Part shown: positions 802-49,834 of the stretch, one piece after another
Numbering within the stretch: the stretch's first letter is position 1
How the letters are laid out: each line of letters starts with the position of its first letter
Source of the DNA: Gemmatimonas sp.
Lineage (GTDB): Bacteria; Gemmatimonadota; Gemmatimonadetes; Gemmatimonadales; Gemmatimonadaceae
Reading direction: 5' to 3'
NCBI RefSeq assembly: GCF_027531815.1
Contig: NZ_JAPZSK010000007.1
Span: 1-64,000, forward strand
Length of the DNA stretch: 64,000 bases
The notes under the pieces: generated by a model
The model's database searches: none
The model's input: the letters and a program-made list of their open reading frames with translations, nothing else
What the model was told of the DNA's origin: nothing
Position numbers and translations under genes: made by a program

Positions 802-2871
<2,070 letters not shown>

Positions 2872-2949
2872 CTACCGCTGGCGGCGGCGTCACCCGAGGG
2901 GCATGATGCCTACGTTCGCTGGTTTGTGGGTCCACACGCGGAGGGAGAG

Positions 2950-3306
2950 ATGGTCCATCGAATCGAGACGCACGACGTCGACCAGGAACCACAGGACGAC
3001 GTGGACGTGCGTGAGGTGCTGCTCACTGCGCCTGATGCCGGGCGCACCGACGGCCGCGCTTTCGGGCTGGGGCTGCTGCTCGGGGCGGCGCTCGGAGCCG
3101 GCATGGCGCTGCTCATGGCACCGGCCAGCGGCGAGGATACGCGGCGCCAACTGCGCCGTGGTGCGCGGCGGCTGTACGTGCGTGGCAGCGAGGCGGTCAC
3201 CGATCTGCGCGACGATGCCGATCGCATGGCGCGTCGGCTGGCCCGTCGTGGCGCGCGGCGCAGCCGCGACATGGCGCAGGAGCTTCAGGATCGGGTGCGC
3301 GGGTAA
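2950..3306 (+). CDS. YtxH-like small membrane protein
   Basis: A protein of 118 aa. A hydrophobic segment rich in Gly/Ala (FGLGLLLGAALGAGMALLMA, about residues 40-60) followed by SGEDTRRQLRRGARRL is the YtxH pattern. An Arg-rich amphipathic tail follows. YtxH proteins are small envelope proteins with suspected stress roles. ATG at 2950 is preferred over 2926 because a purine-rich ribosome site (GGAGGGAGAG) stands just before it. Divergent from ligA, so both promoters must lie within 2863-2949. Function beyond the family name is not known. Confidence 0.7.
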   Translation: MVHRIETHDVDQEPQDDVDVREVLLTAPDAGRTDGRAFGLGLLLGAALGAGMALLMAPASGEDTRRQLRRGARRLYVRGSEAVTDLRDDADRMARRLARRGARRSRDMAQELQDRVRG

Positions 3307-3342
3307 CGGCTGGGGAGTAGGGGGGGAGCCCCCTTCTCCCCG

Positions 3343-4107
3343 TTACTTGAGCCGACGCAGTTCTTCGGTGGCCTGCTGCCGATACACCCGGTCATTCGGG
3401 TCAAAATCGGCACTGGCGACCGCGGCCCGATACGCGGCGCGCGCGTCTTCCGTGCGCTCGAGGTCGCGATAGATGCGCGCGAGGTCGAGCCGGTGCACAA
3501 GCCGCTCCGGCTCCACCTGCACCGCCAGTTCGAGATAGCGTACGGCTTCGCTCCAGGACGCGGTCGAGAAGATCTGTCCACCGAGGAAGGCCTTGGCCAC
3601 CGTACGGGCAATCCCGTTGAGGCGCATGATTTCGGCGTTCCACACGCCCATGACGTGCAGCGCGCCCGGGTGACGCGGTGACAGTTTGAGTGCCGCCAGC
3701 GCCTGCTCCCGCACCTCGATGCCCAGCTTCACCCGTTCGCGAGGACCAAGCGCCAGCGCCGTGCGCCCCACGGCTCGCGACAGGTGGAAATGGCCTTCGG
3801 CATCACCGGGGTTGAGCGCCACGGCACGGCGCGCATACGCGGTGGCCTTGGCGTACAGCGCGGTGCGCACGGCGTCATTGCGTTCGAACTCCCCCTGGTC
3901 CACCGCCACGGCGGCCGCCTGCCACAGCTCCGTGTAGGTGGCGGGCTCACGCGCCGCTGCCGCCGCTGCCGCCGGCAGCTGGGCCGCAACCGAGCGCCAC
4001 GGAAGCAGCGCCACCGCGCTGCCCGCCACCAGCGCGCCAATGCAGAGTGCGCCCGACAGGGTGCGCGGCCGTCGTGCGGGAGCGGACAGGCTGGTGTAGG
4101 TTGGCAT
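3343..4107 (-). CDS. secreted TPR-repeat protein
   Basis: A protein of 254 aa. The N-terminus is a signal peptide (Arg-rich start, then LSGALCIGALVAGSAVALL and an Ala-rich cleavage region ending VAAQ), so the protein should be periplasmic or surface-bound. The rest is helical with tetratricopeptide-like repeats (ATAYARRAVALNPGDAEGHF, KLSPRHPGALHVMG, RYLELAVQVEPERLVHRLDL, DLERTEDARAAY). TPRs are protein-interaction scaffolds; the partner is unknown. ATG 4107 is preferred over the upstream GTG at 4122, which would overlap the divergent deoA gene. Even so, the two start codons are only 5 bp apart. Confidence 0.75.
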   Translation of the reverse strand: MPTYTSLSAPARRPRTLSGALCIGALVAGSAVALLPWRSVAAQLPAAAAAAAREPATYTELWQAAAVAVDQGEFERNDAVRTALYAKATAYARRAVALNPGDAEGHFHLSRAVGRTALALGPRERVKLGIEVREQALAALKLSPRHPGALHVMGVWNAEIMRLNGIARTVAKAFLGGQIFSTASWSEAVRYLELAVQVEPERLVHRLDLARIYRDLERTEDARAAYRAAVASADFDPNDRVYRQQATEELRRLK

Positions 4108-42909: not shown

Positions 42910-45900
42910 ATGATCGATTTCCGCAGCTCGCGCGAAGCCCGCGCGTCGGCGTTCGACTACATGTCGGTCCGCATCGCTTCTCCGGAAGAGATCCGCGGCC
43001 CGAAGGACCCCAAGGAGCGCGAGCGGTTGGAGATGGCCGGCTTGCGCACCTGGTGGTCGTGGGGCGAAGTCACGAAGCCCGAAACCATCAATTACCGCTC
43101 CTTCAAGCCCGAGAAGGACGGCCTGTTCTGCGAGCGCATCTTCGGTCCCGTAAAGGACTGGGAATGCCATTGCGGCAAGTACAAGCGCATCCGCTACCGC
43201 GGCGTGATCTGCGACCGCTGCGGCGTGGAAGTCACGCTCAGCAAGGTGCGGCGCGAGCGCATGGGTCATATCGAACTGGCCGTGCCGGTTGCGCACATCT
43301 GGTTCTTCAAGACCCTGCCGAGCCCCATGGGCAACCTGCTCGACGTCACGCTGCGTGACCTCGAGAAGGTGATCTACTACAGCAACTACATCGTCATTGA
43401 GCCGGGCAATCAGGAGGTGCGTGAGCGCCAACTGCTCGACGAAGACGAGTACCTCACGCTGCGCCAGAAGGCCAAGGCCGAGGGTGACACGGCGTTCCAG
43501 TGCGACATCGGCGCGCCGGCCGTGCGTGAACTGCTCAAGCGCCTCGACGTCGACAAGACGGCCGAGGAGCTGCGGGGCTCCGTGGTGGGCGAGACGAGCC
43601 AGCATCGCAAGAAGCAGATGCTCAAGCGTCTCAAGATCGTCGATGCCTTCCGCACGTCGGGCGAGGGCGGCGAAATCCGCAACCGTCCGGAGTGGATGAT
43701 CCTCGACGTCATCCCGGTCATCCCGCCCGACCTCCGTCCGCTCGTGCCGCTCGATGGCGGCCGCTTCGCGACGTCGGACCTGAACGACCTGTACCGCCGC
43801 GTCATCAATCGCAACAACCGCCTGCAGAAGCTCATCTCGCACCGTGCGCCGGAAGTCATCCTGCGCAACGAGAAGCGCATGCTGCAGGAAGCGGTCGACG
43901 CGCTGTTCGACAACGGGCGCCGCTCGAAGGCCATCCGTGGCCGCGGCAAGCGCCCGCTCAAGTCGCTCTCCGACATGCTCAAGGGCAAGCAGGGCCGGTT
44001 CCGTCAGAACCTGCTCGGCAAGCGCGTGGACTACTCGGGCCGTTCGGTCATCGTCGTGGGACCGGAGCTCAAGCTGCACCAGTGCGGCCTGCCCAAGGCC
44101 ATGGCGCTCGAGCTCTTCAAGCCGTTCATCATCCACAAGCTGGTGGAGAGCGGCGAGGCGGAGACGGTGAAGCGCGCCAAGAAGATCGTGGAGCGCGAGA
44201 ACGCGATGGTCTACGAGGTGCTGGAAGGCATCATCAAGGACCACCCCGTGCTGCTCAACCGCGCCCCCACGCTCCACCGTCTGGGCATTCAGGCGTTCGA
44301 GCCGGTGCTGGTGGAAGGCAAGGCCATTCGTATTCACCCGCTCGTAACGACGGCGTTCAACGCCGACTTCGACGGTGACCAGATGGCCGTGCACGTGCCG
44401 CTGTCGTTCGAGGCGCAGATCGAGGCGCGCGTGCTCATGCTCTCCTCGAACAACATCCTCAAGCCCTCGGACGGCCGTCCGGTGGCCGAGCCGTCGCAGG
44501 ACATCGTGCTTGGCTGCTACGTCGCCACCAAGGCGCCGTCGGCCGACTTCGACAAGAAGAAGGAAGATCCCAATTTCGTGAAGACGCTGCCGGCCTACGC
44601 CAGCTCGTCGGAAGTGGAAATGGCGATCGCCAACGGTCGGGCCAACTACCAGACGCCGATCCGCTGGCGCCTGGAAACCGAGTCGGGCTCGGAGTGGATT
44701 GGCACCACCGCCGGGCGTGTCATGTTCAACGGCATCGTCCCGAAGGCGCTGCCGTTCCTGAACAAGGACATGAAGAAGAAGGCGCTCGGGGAACTCGTGT
44801 TCGAGAGCTACCGCTCGGCGGGGCTCGCGGAAACGGTGGCCATGCTTGACCGTCTCAAGGAGTTCGGCTTCCGCAACGCGACGCGCGGCGGCGTCTCCAT
44901 CGGCATCGAAGACCTGCACATTCCCAAGGAGAAGCAGGTCCTGCTCACCGAGGCGTCGGAGCGCGTAGAGCGCTTCCAGCGCGCCTACGCGACGGGCAAC
45001 ATCACGAACGGTGAACGCTACAACAAGGTCATCGACACGTGGACGCACGCGAACACCGACATTGCCGACGCCATGGTGAAGACCATGCGCGAGTCGCAGG
45101 GCGGGTTCAACCCGGTGTTCATGATGTTCGACTCCGGTTCTCGTGGTAGCCGCGACCAGATCCGTCAGCTGGCGGGTATGCGCGGCCTCATGGCGAAGCC
45201 GCAGAAGAAGCTCACGGGTGGTATCGGCGAAATCATCGAAAACCCGATCAAGTCGAACTTCCGTGAAGGGCTGTCGGTGCTCGAGTACTTCTCGTCCACA
45301 CACGGTGCGCGTAAGGGTCTCGCGGACACGGCGCTCAAGACGGCCGACGCCGGGTACCTCACGCGTCGTCTGGTGGACGTGGCCCAGGACATGACGATTG
45401 CCGAGGAGGATTGCGGCACGATCCTGGGCATCGATACGGCAGCGCTGAAGGAAGGCGAAGACGTGATCGAGCCGCTCGCCGAGCGTCTCGTCGGCAACGT
45501 GGCGGCCGAGGATGTGTACGATCCGATGGAACGCGATGAGGCGGGGCGTCCGCGCCTGCTCGTCGAGGCGGGCTCGCTCATTTCGGAGGAAACGGCGCAG
45601 GGCATCGAGGACGCGGGCATCGAAACGGTGAAGATCCGTTCCGTGCTCACCTGCGAAGCCAAGCGCGGCCTCTGCCGCATGTGCTACGGCCGCAACCTGG
45701 CCACCATGCAGATGGTGGATCTGGGCGAGGCGGTGGGCATCATTGCCGCGCAGTCGATCGGCGAACCGGGAACGCAGCTGACGCTCCGCACCTTCCACGT
45801 GGGTGGAACGGCAGCGCGTATCGCCGAGCAGACGGCGCGCAAGACCAAGAAGGCCGGTGTCATCGAGTTCGGCGACCGTCTCGTGACCGTCGTCAACCCG

Positions 45901-47226
45901 GACGGCCAGAAGGTCGTGACGTCGTACGAGGGCGAGCTCATCATCAAGGCGTCGGCCGACAAGAACGCGGCGATCGAGGCGCGCCTGCAGGTGCCGCTCG
46001 GCGCGTACCTCATGGTCGAGGACGGCCAGGCCGTGAAGAAGGAAGACACGGTGTTCACGTGGGACCCGTACTCGAATCCGATCATCGCGGACGTCGAGGG
46101 AACCGTGCGCTTCGTGGACCTCGTGGAAGACGAATCGCTGGCCGAGGAGCTCGACGAACTCACGGGTCTCCGTCAGCGCGTCGTGATCGAAGACCGCGAA
46201 AAGAAGCTGCACCCGCACATCGAGATCTGGCAGAACAAGGGCGGCAAGGAGAAGCGCGTGCGCGACTTCATCCTGCCCGTGGGCGCCGTGATCACGATCG
46301 AGGACGGCGAGGAGATCAAGGCGGGCACCATTCTGGCCAAGATCAGCCGCGAGGCGTACAAGACTCGCGACATCACGGGTGGTCTGCCGCGCGTGGCCGA
46401 GCTCTTCGAGGCGCGCCGGCCGAAGGACCCGGCGACGATCTCCGAGGTGGACGGGTTCGTGCGGTTCGGCGAGATCAAGCGCGGCAAGCGCGAGGTGTTC
46501 GTGCGCCCGGCGGTCATCGACCGCGGCGTGTGGCAGGTGGACGAAAGCCAGGCGGAGCAGGTGTACGAAGTGCCGTCCGGCAAGCACCTGCGCGTGCACG
46601 AGGGCGACCGCGTGCGCGCCGGCGACCGCATCAGCGAGGGCCCGGTCAACCCGCACGACATTCTCCGCATCAAGGGGCCGCGCGCCGTGCAGGAATACCT
46701 CCTGAACGAAGTGCAGGAGGTCTACCGCCTGCAGGGCGTGAAGATCAACGACAAGCACATCGGCGTGATCGTCAAGCAGATGTTGCAGAAGGTGCGTATC
46801 GTGGAGTCGGGCGACACCGAGATGCTCGAGGGCGAGCATGTCGATCGCGCGGTCTTCCGCGAGACGAACGAGGACGCCAAGAAGCGGAAGATCACGCCGG
46901 CCACGGCGGAGCCCCTGCTGCTCGGTATCACGAAGGCCTCGCTCACCACGCAGTCGTTCGTGTCGGCGGCCTCCTTCCAGGAGACCACGCGCGTCCTCAC
47001 CGACGCGGCCATTCGTGGCTCGCGCGACGACCTGCTGGGGCTCAAGGAGAACATCATCATCGGTCACCTCATCCCGGCCGGTACGGGCATGTACCGCTAC
47101 CAGGAAGTGGACGTTGAGAGCGATGCGCTCCCCGAGCCGGAGCCGCTGCCGGACGCGATCGAGCCCAATTTCGATGCGCTGCTGCCGAGCTTCGAACCGT
47201 CGGCGTTCACGATGCCGGACGAGTAA
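42910..47226 (+). CDS. rpoC: RNA polymerase subunit beta'
   Basis: A protein of 1438 aa. N-terminal zinc site [20 protein letters not shown], lid/rudder region [25 protein letters not shown], the catalytic Mg-binding [12 protein letters not shown], bridge helix and trigger loop regions ([25 protein letters not shown]), and the second zinc site [14 protein letters not shown]. It begins 3 bp after rpoB. A very strong terminator follows. Confidence 0.98.
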
Positions 47227-47230
47227 ACAG

Positions 47231-47280
47231 AGCAACGAAACGCGGGGCGGGCCTTCTGGCCCGCCCCGCGTTTCGTTGCT
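47231..47280 (+). terminator. rpoC terminator, 23-bp perfect stem
   Basis: 47231-47253 pairs without mismatch with 47258-47280 around a TTCT loop. It starts 4 bp after the rpoC stop codon. The T run is weak, but the stem (23 bp, mostly G:C in the middle) is exceptionally long. Confidence 0.85.
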
Positions 47281-47327: not shown

Positions 47328-47389
47328 TGAGAGGGAGAGGTGAGCCCGGATCGCGGTGAGAGTTGAGTGTCCCCGCGGTGAGAATTGAG
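47328..47389 (+). repeat. left inverted-repeat arm
   Basis: Purine-rich 62-bp arm. Identical blocks shared with the right arm are the first 13 bp (TGAGAGGGAGAGG) and the stretch GGATCGCGGTGAGAG. The repeated core GGTGAGA occurs twice. Further GAGA-rich sequence lies upstream (47292-47327). Confidence 0.8.
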
Positions 47390-47458
47390 TGCGTAGGATT
47401 GGCACGAGGCGTGGGATTCGGATGACGCACCTTCGGGGCTGCTCGCCTATCGTGGCGC

Positions 47459-47845
47459 ATGGCACACAACCCTCATGCGCTTCAGGTAGTGCAGCGCGCC
47501 TTCGCGCTCTCCGTAGATGTGCATCGACTCGCGGACCGATGCCACGAGTCGATGGCGCGAGTGTCACCCGGCATGCGCAACCAGCTGCTGAGGGCGGTCA
47601 ACTCCATTGCGCTCAACCTGGCGGAAGGTGCCGGGTATCAGTCGCCCTCGAGAACGGCATCGTTCTGTACGACGGCAATAGGTTCGTGCAACGAGGTCGA
47701 GCTTCAACTGCGCCTCGCGCGTGCACTCAACGCGATCCCGGACGACTACGATGTGCTGATCGACGAAGTGGTCGAGATCAGAAAGATGTCGTACGGCTTC
47801 CGGAAGCATGTCATGGGCAGGCGAGACAAGGCCGCACCCCCCTGA
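47459..47845 (+). CDS. four-helix-bundle protein (S23 / IVP family)
   Basis: A protein of 128 aa. The family core is clear: MRNQLLRAVNSIALNLAEGAG, then SFCTTAIGSCNEVELQLRLA. These proteins were first found inside intervening sequences of 23S rRNA, and the related Avd fold serves diversity-generating retroelements; no rRNA or reverse transcriptase is near here. The codons include AGA, AGG, ATA, CTT and GTA, which are rare in the neighbours and suggest transfer. The stop codon lies inside the right inverted-repeat arm. The function of stand-alone copies is unknown. Confidence 0.85.
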   Translation: MAHNPHALQVVQRAFALSVDVHRLADRCHESMARVSPGMRNQLLRAVNSIALNLAEGAGYQSPSRTASFCTTAIGSCNEVELQLRLARALNAIPDDYDVLIDEVVEIRKMSYGFRKHVMGRRDKAAPP

Positions 47846-47903
47846 GCTCTCACCGCTGGCCCGCTGACCTCTCACCGCGATCCAGGCTGCCCTCTCCCTC
47901 TCA
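47842..47903 (-). repeat. right inverted-repeat arm
   Basis: Inverted copy of 47328-47389, pyrimidine-rich on the + strand. It begins one base before the stop codon of the enclosed gene. Related CTCACC-type sequence continues to about 47955 and into the 3' end of the kinase gene. Confidence 0.8.
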
Positions 47904-47935: not shown

Positions 47936-49834
47936 TCACCGTCTCACCGTCTCCGCGGTGCGTCGGCGCGCGGCGATGGTTGCCGCCGTGTCCAGCCACA
48001 CGCTCATCTGCTTGCGGGCCTGCTCCATGCTGGTCGCGTCGGCGGTGGTCACGGTTTCCAGCGCGCGCGTGAAGCGACCACTGCGCACGTCGGTCAGCAT
48101 CGTCACCATCGCCACCGAATCGCCGCGGGCAATGAGCCACCCGCTGACGACATAATCGGCGCGCAGCGCCCAGCCCACCGACATCTTGTCGGGGAGCGTG
48201 CGGGTGGCCCGTTCGGTCAGGTCAGCCGGTACCACCTCGAACCGATCCGCCGGGATGGCCTCGCGCAGTTCGCTGGCCGCGCTCCGTGCCAGCGCGCTCA
48301 CTTCACGCTTGCCCGTGGCATTGGTGAAGGCGGCCACCACGACGCGCAGGCGGCCATCGGCAGGTGGCGCCATGAGCGGCGCGACGGGCATGTTCGGGCG
48401 CGAGGCGCTGCGGGCGTCGAACACCAACGACCGTCCGCCACTCCCCGCATCGGCCGGCGGCATCTCCGGACGCACGAAGCGCGGCGCGCTGGCCAGCGTG
48501 ACCTCCATCTCCCTGATCGCACGGGTCATGGAGTCGGCGAAGATGCGGCCCACCTCAGCGAGCAGCAGCGCGCGATCGATCCGGGTGCTGTCGCCGGCTG
48601 GCGCCGTTGGCGCCGCCCCGCGGGGCTCGGCGCTGCGCTGGCGCTTGGTCACGGCTGCCGCAATCGCCAGCGATTCGGCACGGGTGATCACGAACGGCGT
48701 CACCGCCTCCATCGCCGCCTCATCGGCAAGGCGAAGCGCCGCGCTGGAGTCGGTCTGCACGCCGCCTGTCGGCTCGGTCGGTGCGGTGAGGGGCGTCCCG
48801 GTGCGGCCGCCCGGTCCGGCGTCACGCGCCTCCAGCGCGTCCGCCACGCCACGTGGAGGCGTGCGGTCGGGCACGACGGCCCAGAGCAGGGCGCCAAGCA
48901 AGGCCACGGCGCCCGCCGCGCCAAGGGCGCGGGCACGCCGGGCTCTGGCAAATACGCTGGAGGGCCCGCGCACGCCGAGCGTCTGTCCCGGCATGGGTGG
49001 GAGCGCCTCGAGGGTGGCAAGGAGCGCCTGCGCCGTCTGGGGGCGCTTGGCGGCGTCCTTGGCGAGACAGTGCATGATGAGCCGAGACAGCGGCTCGGGG
49101 ATGTCGCTCACCGTGCGATGCGGTGGCTCCGGCATGACCGTCAGTTGGGCCGCCAAGGTGGCCTGCGGTGAGGAACCGCTGAACGGGCCCTTGCCGGTGA
49201 GCAGCTCGTAGGCCAACAGCCCCACGGCGTAGAGGTCCACGCGATGGTCGGCGGCCGGGTCGGCCGCCAGCTGCTCAGGCGCCATGTAGGCTGGGGTGCC
49301 GATCGCCAGGCCGGTGCTCGTGCCGCTGTGCCCCGGCCCCGAGGCGCTCAGCGCCTTGGCGACCCCGAAATCGGTGACCAGTGCGTGCATACCCGACGTG
49401 AGGATGTTGTCGGGCTTGATATCCCGGTGCACCACGCCCCGTCCGTGGGCGTAGGCGAGGGCGTCGACCACATCGTGCAGGATGCGCACCACGTCGCGTG
49501 GCGAGAGCCGCCCGTGGCGGGCAAGGGTGCCACGAAGCGACTCCCCCTCGATGTAGGGCATGGAAAACCAGAGCAGCCCGTGGTCATCGCCCGCGGCAAT
49601 GAGTGGCACGATATGCGGGTGCTGCAACTGCGCCGCCAGCTGGATCTCGCGGCGGAAGCGTTCCACATTCACGCCCGCCGCGAGCTCCGGCGGCAGCACC
49701 TTCACGACCACCGTCCGGTTGAGGGCCCGTTCGGTCGCCACGAATACCCGCGACATGCCGGCGCCGCCGAGTTCCCGGTCGATGTGGAACCCGGGGGCCA
49801 AGGCGCGCTGCAGGCGCTCCAGAAAATCAGTCAC
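47936..49834 (-). CDS. membrane Ser/Thr protein kinase with TolB-N/FlgO-like C-terminus
   Basis: A protein of 632 aa from GTG 49834. Hanks-type kinase domain, residues ~15-275: Gly loop ELGGAGMSRVFVA, K45, catalytic HRDIKPDN (D138), DFG 155-157, GTPAYMAPEQ. One membrane helix at about 303-321. The outer part is low-complexity, then a folded domain (LRVVVAAFTNATGKREVSAL ... ADYVVSGWLIARGDSVAMVTMLTD), similar to the TolB N-terminal / FlgO type found on such kinases. The last codons (ETVRR, stop) lie in GGTGAGA repeat sequence linked to the adjacent inverted-repeat cassette. Confidence 0.9.
   Translation of the reverse strand: MTDFLERLQRALAPGFHIDRELGGAGMSRVFVATERALNRTVVVKVLPPELAAGVNVERFRREIQLAAQLQHPHIVPLIAAGDDHGLLWFSMPYIEGESLRGTLARHGRLSPRDVVRILHDVVDALAYAHGRGVVHRDIKPDNILTSGMHALVTDFGVAKALSASGPGHSGTSTGLAIGTPAYMAPEQLAADPAADHRVDLYAVGLLAYELLTGKGPFSGSSPQATLAAQLTVMPEPPHRTVSDIPEPLSRLIMHCLAKDAAKRPQTAQALLATLEALPPMPGQTLGVRGPSSVFARARRARALGAAGAVALLGALLWAVVPDRTPPRGVADALEARDAGPGGRTGTPLTAPTEPTGGVQTDSSAALRLADEAAMEAVTPFVITRAESLAIAAAVTKRQRSAEPRGAAPTAPAGDSTRIDRALLLAEVGRIFADSMTRAIREMEVTLASAPRFVRPEMPPADAGSGGRSLVFDARSASRPNMPVAPLMAPPADGRLRVVVAAFTNATGKREVSALARSAASELREAIPADRFEVVPADLTERATRTLPDKMSVGWALRADYVVSGWLIARGDSVAMVTMLTDVRSGRFTRALETVTTADATSMEQARKQMSVWLDTAATIAARRRTAETVRR

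Follow-up and report, generated by a model that had tools for sequence, protein, structure and literature searches.

Stand-alone S23 genes are common, and to our knowledge no role has been assigned to them; we likewise know of no agent for the heptamer arrays of Xanthomonas, Nostoc and others, a type of repeat to which the cyanobacterial STRRs also belong. Dispersed intergenic palindromes that occur as gene-free copies, together with a cognate gene that is itself flanked by the repeats, characterize the REPIN/RAYT (TnpA-REP) systems. Avd is a four-helix bundle with a fold kinship to S23.

S23 proteins, stem-bounded S23 ORFs occurring as rRNA intervening sequences, and heptamer repeats are all known, but separately. 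In the 23S rRNA intervening sequences of Leptospira and Coxiella, an S23 ORF lies in a terminal inverted-repeat stem; these sequences are sporadically distributed, and a mobile origin has been proposed for them (PMC4990558). Heptamer repeats have been described as GGGAATC in Xanthomonas and GGGGA(C/T)T in Nostoc (PMC4692102), and as TAACTGA in Beggiatoaceae (PMC4679880). In Xanthomonas species other than X. arboricola, GGGAATC was described as an unexplained G-rich heptamer that forms many convergent inverted pairs (PMC4692102). Neither study names a partner gene or mentions S23 (PMC4692102, PMC4679880), and in the open journal literature that we searched, no paper connecting S23 with heptamer arrays was found. 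In a retroelement system that encodes avd, homing requires a hairpin or cruciform, of which the structure and not the stem sequence counts (PMC3240598). Here we analyze an S23 gene and its surroundings in a 64,000-nucleotide stretch of a Gemmatimonas sp. genome (G000, contig C7, positions 1-64000; hereafter the window) and compare it with these systems.

Results

Architecture of the window locus

The original prediction had described a four-helix-bundle gene enclosed by two inverted arms downstream of rpoC (Table 1). Its measurements proved exact on recount: the arms are of equal length and match without a difference over two blocks, one of 13 and one of 15 bp, and a repeat finder returned 84% identity over 56 bp. 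Exactly one gene is bracketed by the arms. It scores 76 bits against the PF05635 profile (23S_rRNA_IVP; cut-off 33.8) over profile positions 3-105 of 106, and is on this profile match a member of the S23/IVP family. The PDB entries 2gsc (XCC0516 of Xanthomonas campestris, E 6e-24) and 2rld (E 6e-17) are sequence relatives of S23 proteins, but were deposited as uncharacterised. The proposed atypical codon usage holds, since GC3 is 0.74 in the S23 gene versus 0.86-0.91 in rpoB, rpoC and the kinase gene; the placement between a terminator and an unrelated gene, as well as the absence of a transposase between the arms, could likewise be confirmed. Rfam matches near the element were dismissed, as all of them fall at or close to the rpoC terminator and score well short of the gathering thresholds.

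Table 1. Features of the S23 locus and its neighbours (positions in the window)
Feature	Position	Strand	Remarks
rpoC	42910..47226	+	Upstream neighbour marking the site; orthologous site compared across the genus
rpoC intrinsic terminator	47231..47280	+	Perfect 23-bp inverted repeat; upstream boundary, outside the element
Left arm	47328..47389	+	Reads TGAGAGGGAGAGGTGAGCCCGGATCGCGGTGAGAGTTGAG... toward the gene; two tandem 18-22 bp units; dispersed in the genome
Direct repeat units in left arm, CGCGGTGAGAGTTGAGTG x2	47352..47391	+	22-bp spacing; family D2
S23/IVP four-helix-bundle gene, 128 aa	47459..47845	+	PF05635, E=3e-21; dN/dS 0.13 with the G014 ortholog
Direct repeat units in right arm, CCCCCTGAGCTCTCACCGC / CCCGCTGACCTCTCACCGC	47838..47878	+	22-bp spacing; family D1
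Right arm (left arm repeated in inverted orientation)	47842..47903	-	Reverse complement matches left arm at 50/62 positions; shares 4 bases with the end of the S23 ORF, stop codon included
Protein kinase ORF	47936..49834	-	Downstream neighbour, opposite strand to S23

As in the rRNA intervening sequences, the window S23 ORF lies inside a terminal inverted-repeat stem; however, it is located between rpoC and a kinase gene instead of within 23S rRNA helices, and none of six conserved rRNA motifs was found at the S23 loci screened. Arms of the window type are, moreover, arrays with dispersed gene-free copies, whereas no such link was found for the intervening sequences. REPIN/RAYT is the nearest formal parallel, in that dispersed non-autonomous palindromes share the flanks of a cognate gene, here S23. 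Yet the partner is a PF05635 four-helix bundle and not an HUH/Y1 transposase (Y1_Tnp is missing from 22 of 30 genomes of the genus), and the S23 arms are arrays of 7-bp or longer units, whereas REPINs are palindromes of 20-40 bp. In terms of mechanism, the closest counterpart is the hairpin or cruciform needed for retroelement homing; unlike a diversity-generating retroelement (DGR), however, the window locus has no template or variable repeat, and the window genome has no RVT_1 gene. Nor does the locus match classical MITE or IS elements, with their conserved short terminal inverted repeats and target-site duplications, as the arms are arrays that differ from locus to locus and no duplication was seen by eye at a clean empty site (L127, below).

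Inverted arms at S23 loci across bacteria

The window genome carries nine PF05635 genes, and at eight of these loci the upstream flank resembles its own inverted downstream flank (seven clear cases; L006 marginal). The arms are locus-specific, flank matches between different loci remaining at background score. PF05635 genes occur in 28 of 30 genus genomes, and the search for further S23 genes with inverted flanks, which had been suggested along with the original prediction, was positive at every phylogenetic depth: 58 of the 70 testable genus loci and 24 of 29 loci in the phylum score above all 1007 control positions, and in a set of 78 named loci that covers about 20 phyla, 64 score above the 99th percentile of 1258 control positions taken from these loci. 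Sliding positions served as the null for the inverted-repeat score in place of mispaired flanks, because orthologous loci inflated the mispaired-flank controls; the contig profile scan used the phylum alignment (A2).

The arms are tandem arrays of short units. Their lag-7 autocorrelation is 0.62 versus 0.25 across phyla and 0.39 in the window's genus, where the units are longer and degenerate and the 7-bp periodicity is weaker; in loci from beyond the genus, tandem 7-bp units can be recognized in the arms by eye (CAGGAGT, AGAGTTG, GGTATCA, GGGAATC, GGGGAGT). The S23 arms share the traits of heptamer and STRR arrays, namely tandem units of about 7 bp, an intergenic location and frequent convergent inverted pairs. 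Read toward the gene, the arms are G-rich, by 53:4, 20:2 and 58:4 loci in three sets, and the same polarity was seen in the five gene-free copies that were measured.

The genus loci without an inverted repeat are mostly one syntenic locus, represented in the set of 70 by L001 (G000:C6:398922-402233), L043, L033, L040, L032 and L064; L036 (outside the tested set) and L047 (score only 18) belong to the same locus, and the arms are absent or weak in all of them. The flanks of this locus are conserved and the adjacent gene is presumably ychF. This S23 gene is likely a domesticated one; where S23 genes keep their position, the arms are weak or missing.

Dispersed gene-free copies

Contrary to what the original prediction expected of a cassette, arms are widespread without the gene: the array family of the window locus forms gene-free palindromes at at least eight other sites in the window genome, and the arms of L007, L009 and L002 recur there as many gene-free pairs, often inverted. 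In total, dispersed gene-free copies exist for four of the eight array families of this genome, few or none being found for those of L003, L005, L006 and L008. The window arms belong to a family of repeats that is dispersed through the genome and whose resident gene is S23. No S23 relics were found within the gene-free copies.

The distribution of two families was followed across the 30 genus genomes. The L007 array gave 26 matches in G000, 30 in G014, four in G005, a single weak one in G013 and none in the 26 others, and S23 genes adjoining an L007 array are present in G000, G014 and G005; the L009 array was found only in G000 and G014. Both families are thus essentially restricted to genomes with the matching S23 gene. 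Since G000, G014 and G005 look closely related, ancestry contributes to this co-occurrence, which is partly confounded by it.

Known heptamers are likewise linked to S23 genes. In Xanthomonas arboricola, an S23 gene (L211) lies between inverted arrays of GGGAATC itself, and (GGGAATC)3 has 499 matches in this genome versus 0 for the reversed pattern. In Nostoc, the S23 gene (L207) is flanked by GGGGAGT, a unit closely similar to the heptamer described there.

One gene-free L002-type pair in the window genome (L281; G000:C6:607003-607571) encloses a 211-bp spacer with no S23 relic and may represent an intermediate form. L002-type arrays are also found at the ends of contigs C1, C4, C8 and C12 of G000, and in G014, G015, G021, G022 and G025 many S23 genes are situated close to the end of a contig, which suggests that L002-type arrays break short-read assemblies. 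For annotators of mobile elements, a PF05635 gene would flag such assembly-breaking repeat families.

Turnover and movement between genomes

Ten gene-free sites of G000 were compared with the sister genome G014, and synteny is kept at every one. At one of them (L127) the copy is cleanly absent from G014, and no target-site duplication, which the original prediction had proposed to look for, is evident by eye at this empty site; at two further sites, L010 and L017, G014 lacks the core but keeps short outer arrays. Gene-free copies are thus present or absent between sister species, through either insertion or deletion, and because a short outer array is kept in the sister at two of the three sites, growth or shrinkage of an existing array is as possible as fresh insertion.

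Elements with the gene also move. Genome G016 has two S23 genes that encode 100% identical proteins at two sites, with homology limited to the gene and its arms, demonstrating that gene and arms can be copied together. A comparison of G020 with G016 shows a single S23 segment in reversed orientation within colinear flanks (L052/L067). The two arms of a locus change in concert: among close orthologs, both arms have acquired the same base at 28 paired positions versus about 3 expected, a comparison in which the pairs are not independent. The S23 gene itself is under purifying selection, with dN/dS values of 0.00-0.18 among close orthologs. Arm k-mers track S23 similarity even where the flanks are unalignable (Mantel r=0.25, 0/2000 permutations), a signal to which residual common descent of the arms may contribute.

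Discussion

Since S23 genes lie within inverted arrays whose gene-less copies populate the same genomes, S23 is probably the missing partner protein of this widespread class of repeats. We consider it probable that the two form a two-part element, similar to REPIN/RAYT, in which the inverted arrays are copied or rebuilt by their S23 partner and every lineage has its own array. In this model, the arms, as inverted arrays of units of about 7 bp or longer, would fold into a long hairpin (RNA or single-stranded DNA) or a cruciform; S23, encoded between them, would recognize the folded arrays in trans and enable their copying or rebuilding at intergenic sites not occupied before, with a separate array family for every S23 lineage. 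The gene-free inverted arrays would then be non-autonomous copies, comparable to REPINs in relation to RAYT. Neither a nuclease nor a transferase motif is recognised in S23, and we know of no catalytic site, so that a structural route appears likely. We infer that S23 binds the folded arms as an oligomer, in all likelihood along the G-rich strand in steps of about 7 nt, and hands them over to host replication or repair enzymes, which would also explain the likeness of the two arms at each locus. The rRNA intervening sequences may represent the rRNA-resident form of the S23 system.

A broader version, to which we give somewhat less than an even chance, holds that S23 proteins founded a class of mobile repeats that extends across bacteria and needs no transposase, recognizing and propagating inverted heptamer-type arrays through hairpins or cruciforms with a separate array per lineage, from which the rRNA intervening sequences, the cyanobacterial STRRs and the G-rich heptamers of Xanthomonas would derive, perhaps together with the Avd/hairpin module of diversity-generating retroelements. 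Such a single architecture would tie together stand-alone S23 genes, heptamer arrays and the origin of the rRNA intervening sequences and make all of them testable; if it is true, the partner gene would sit within a copy of each genome's own repeat. Movement or maintenance of arrays by S23 without a transposase would be a new way of spreading DNA, and with S23 as the mobility factor the system would be a kind of its own.

The arms might instead act in cis, as an RNA stem controlling S23 expression or processing, with the gene-free copies at gene ends serving as S23-bound RNA stabilisers or terminators in an immobile regulon. In the predicted RNA fold, the window arms do form the outer stem (z = -6.55). 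The paired arm changes among close orthologs, described above, are also in keeping with such a stem, and in the rRNA intervening sequences RNase III cuts the stem that holds the S23 ORF (PMC4990558). However, the arms are wholly different between paralogs and have been replaced at one and the same site, the array families are limited to few genomes, and movement is demonstrated by the dispersed duplicate and the empty site, making a purely regulatory function unlikely.

Alternatively, the arrays could arise by slippage or snap-back replication without any contribution of S23, which would merely persist there on tolerated intergenic ground. An IS256-like transposase ORF, recognized by eye, lies within a TGAGAG palindrome in G014 (L269, ~1950-3400, on contig G014:C73, syntenic with L013), so other genes can land in such places, and palindrome centres may attract other insertions. 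Against passive residence, some 80% or more of the S23 genes in each set have an arm on either side while control positions do not, and the arm motif follows the S23 subtype. Array tracts follow the presence of S23 as well: across the phylum, sampled stretches, none of which holds an S23 gene, contain 21 tracts of 7/8-bp repeats (one of them a poly-C run) in 537 kb from eight S23-rich genomes versus 2 in 549 kb from seven S23-free ones. We therefore judge passive residence to be improbable.

A RAYT/Y1 transposase, or else a reverse transcriptase, might also mobilise the arrays in trans, with S23 as cargo or accessory. In favour of this, avd is a DGR accessory gene that acts with a reverse transcriptase and a target hairpin/cruciform (PMC3240598), and the window genome does contain a single Y1_Tnp gene (G000:C6:700538-700870). 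Most of the genus lacks this gene, though, and RVT_1 is absent from 27 of the 30 genomes, in clear mismatch with the near-universal presence of S23 noted above. Neither enzyme explains the pattern generally, and we consider this route very improbable.

The original prediction itself envisaged a small inverted-repeat cassette that had recently moved into the rpoC-kinase gap. Inverted repeats and atypical GC3 are in keeping with it, as are three genomes (G001, G011 and G012) in which the rpoC and kinase matches lie ~240-350 bp apart and the S23 gene is absent. In contrast, 13 genus genomes, including that of the window, carry S23 at this very site, some in the opposite orientation or as another subtype, all with inverted arms that are unalignable between lineages; in the sister genome, S23 lies in colinear DNA that is 88% identical. 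Given that the arms at these 13 sites differ but are always inverted, there was no recent insertion, and recent arrival at the window site is refuted. The element at this site is old or ancestral: the gene has remained in place, and the two arms around it have turned over together. The same gene in the same place with diverged flanks, like the gene-free arms, had been named in advance as telling against a cassette; these results alter that reading rather than kill it, as inverted bounds are class-wide and gene and arms have been copied in G016. A chance inverted repeat can be dismissed outright, given a score of 33.5 at the window locus versus maxima of 17.0 in 1000 Markov-1 shuffles and 15.5 at 1007 control positions elsewhere in the window, as well as the bacteria-wide pattern.

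Two minor observations concern the form and range of the arms. Long, partly palindromic tandem units occur in L274 (1166-1976, ~120 bp) and in the flanks of L003, L044, L045, L061, L068, L069 and L074, where they give rise to direct and inverted repeats together. An S23 gene with inverted units of the TAGGGAATAGCCAATAGGG type, scoring just under the threshold, was also encountered in an archaeal MAG (L223, Methanophagales contig JACUTR010000046), reflecting either an archaeal occurrence or contamination.
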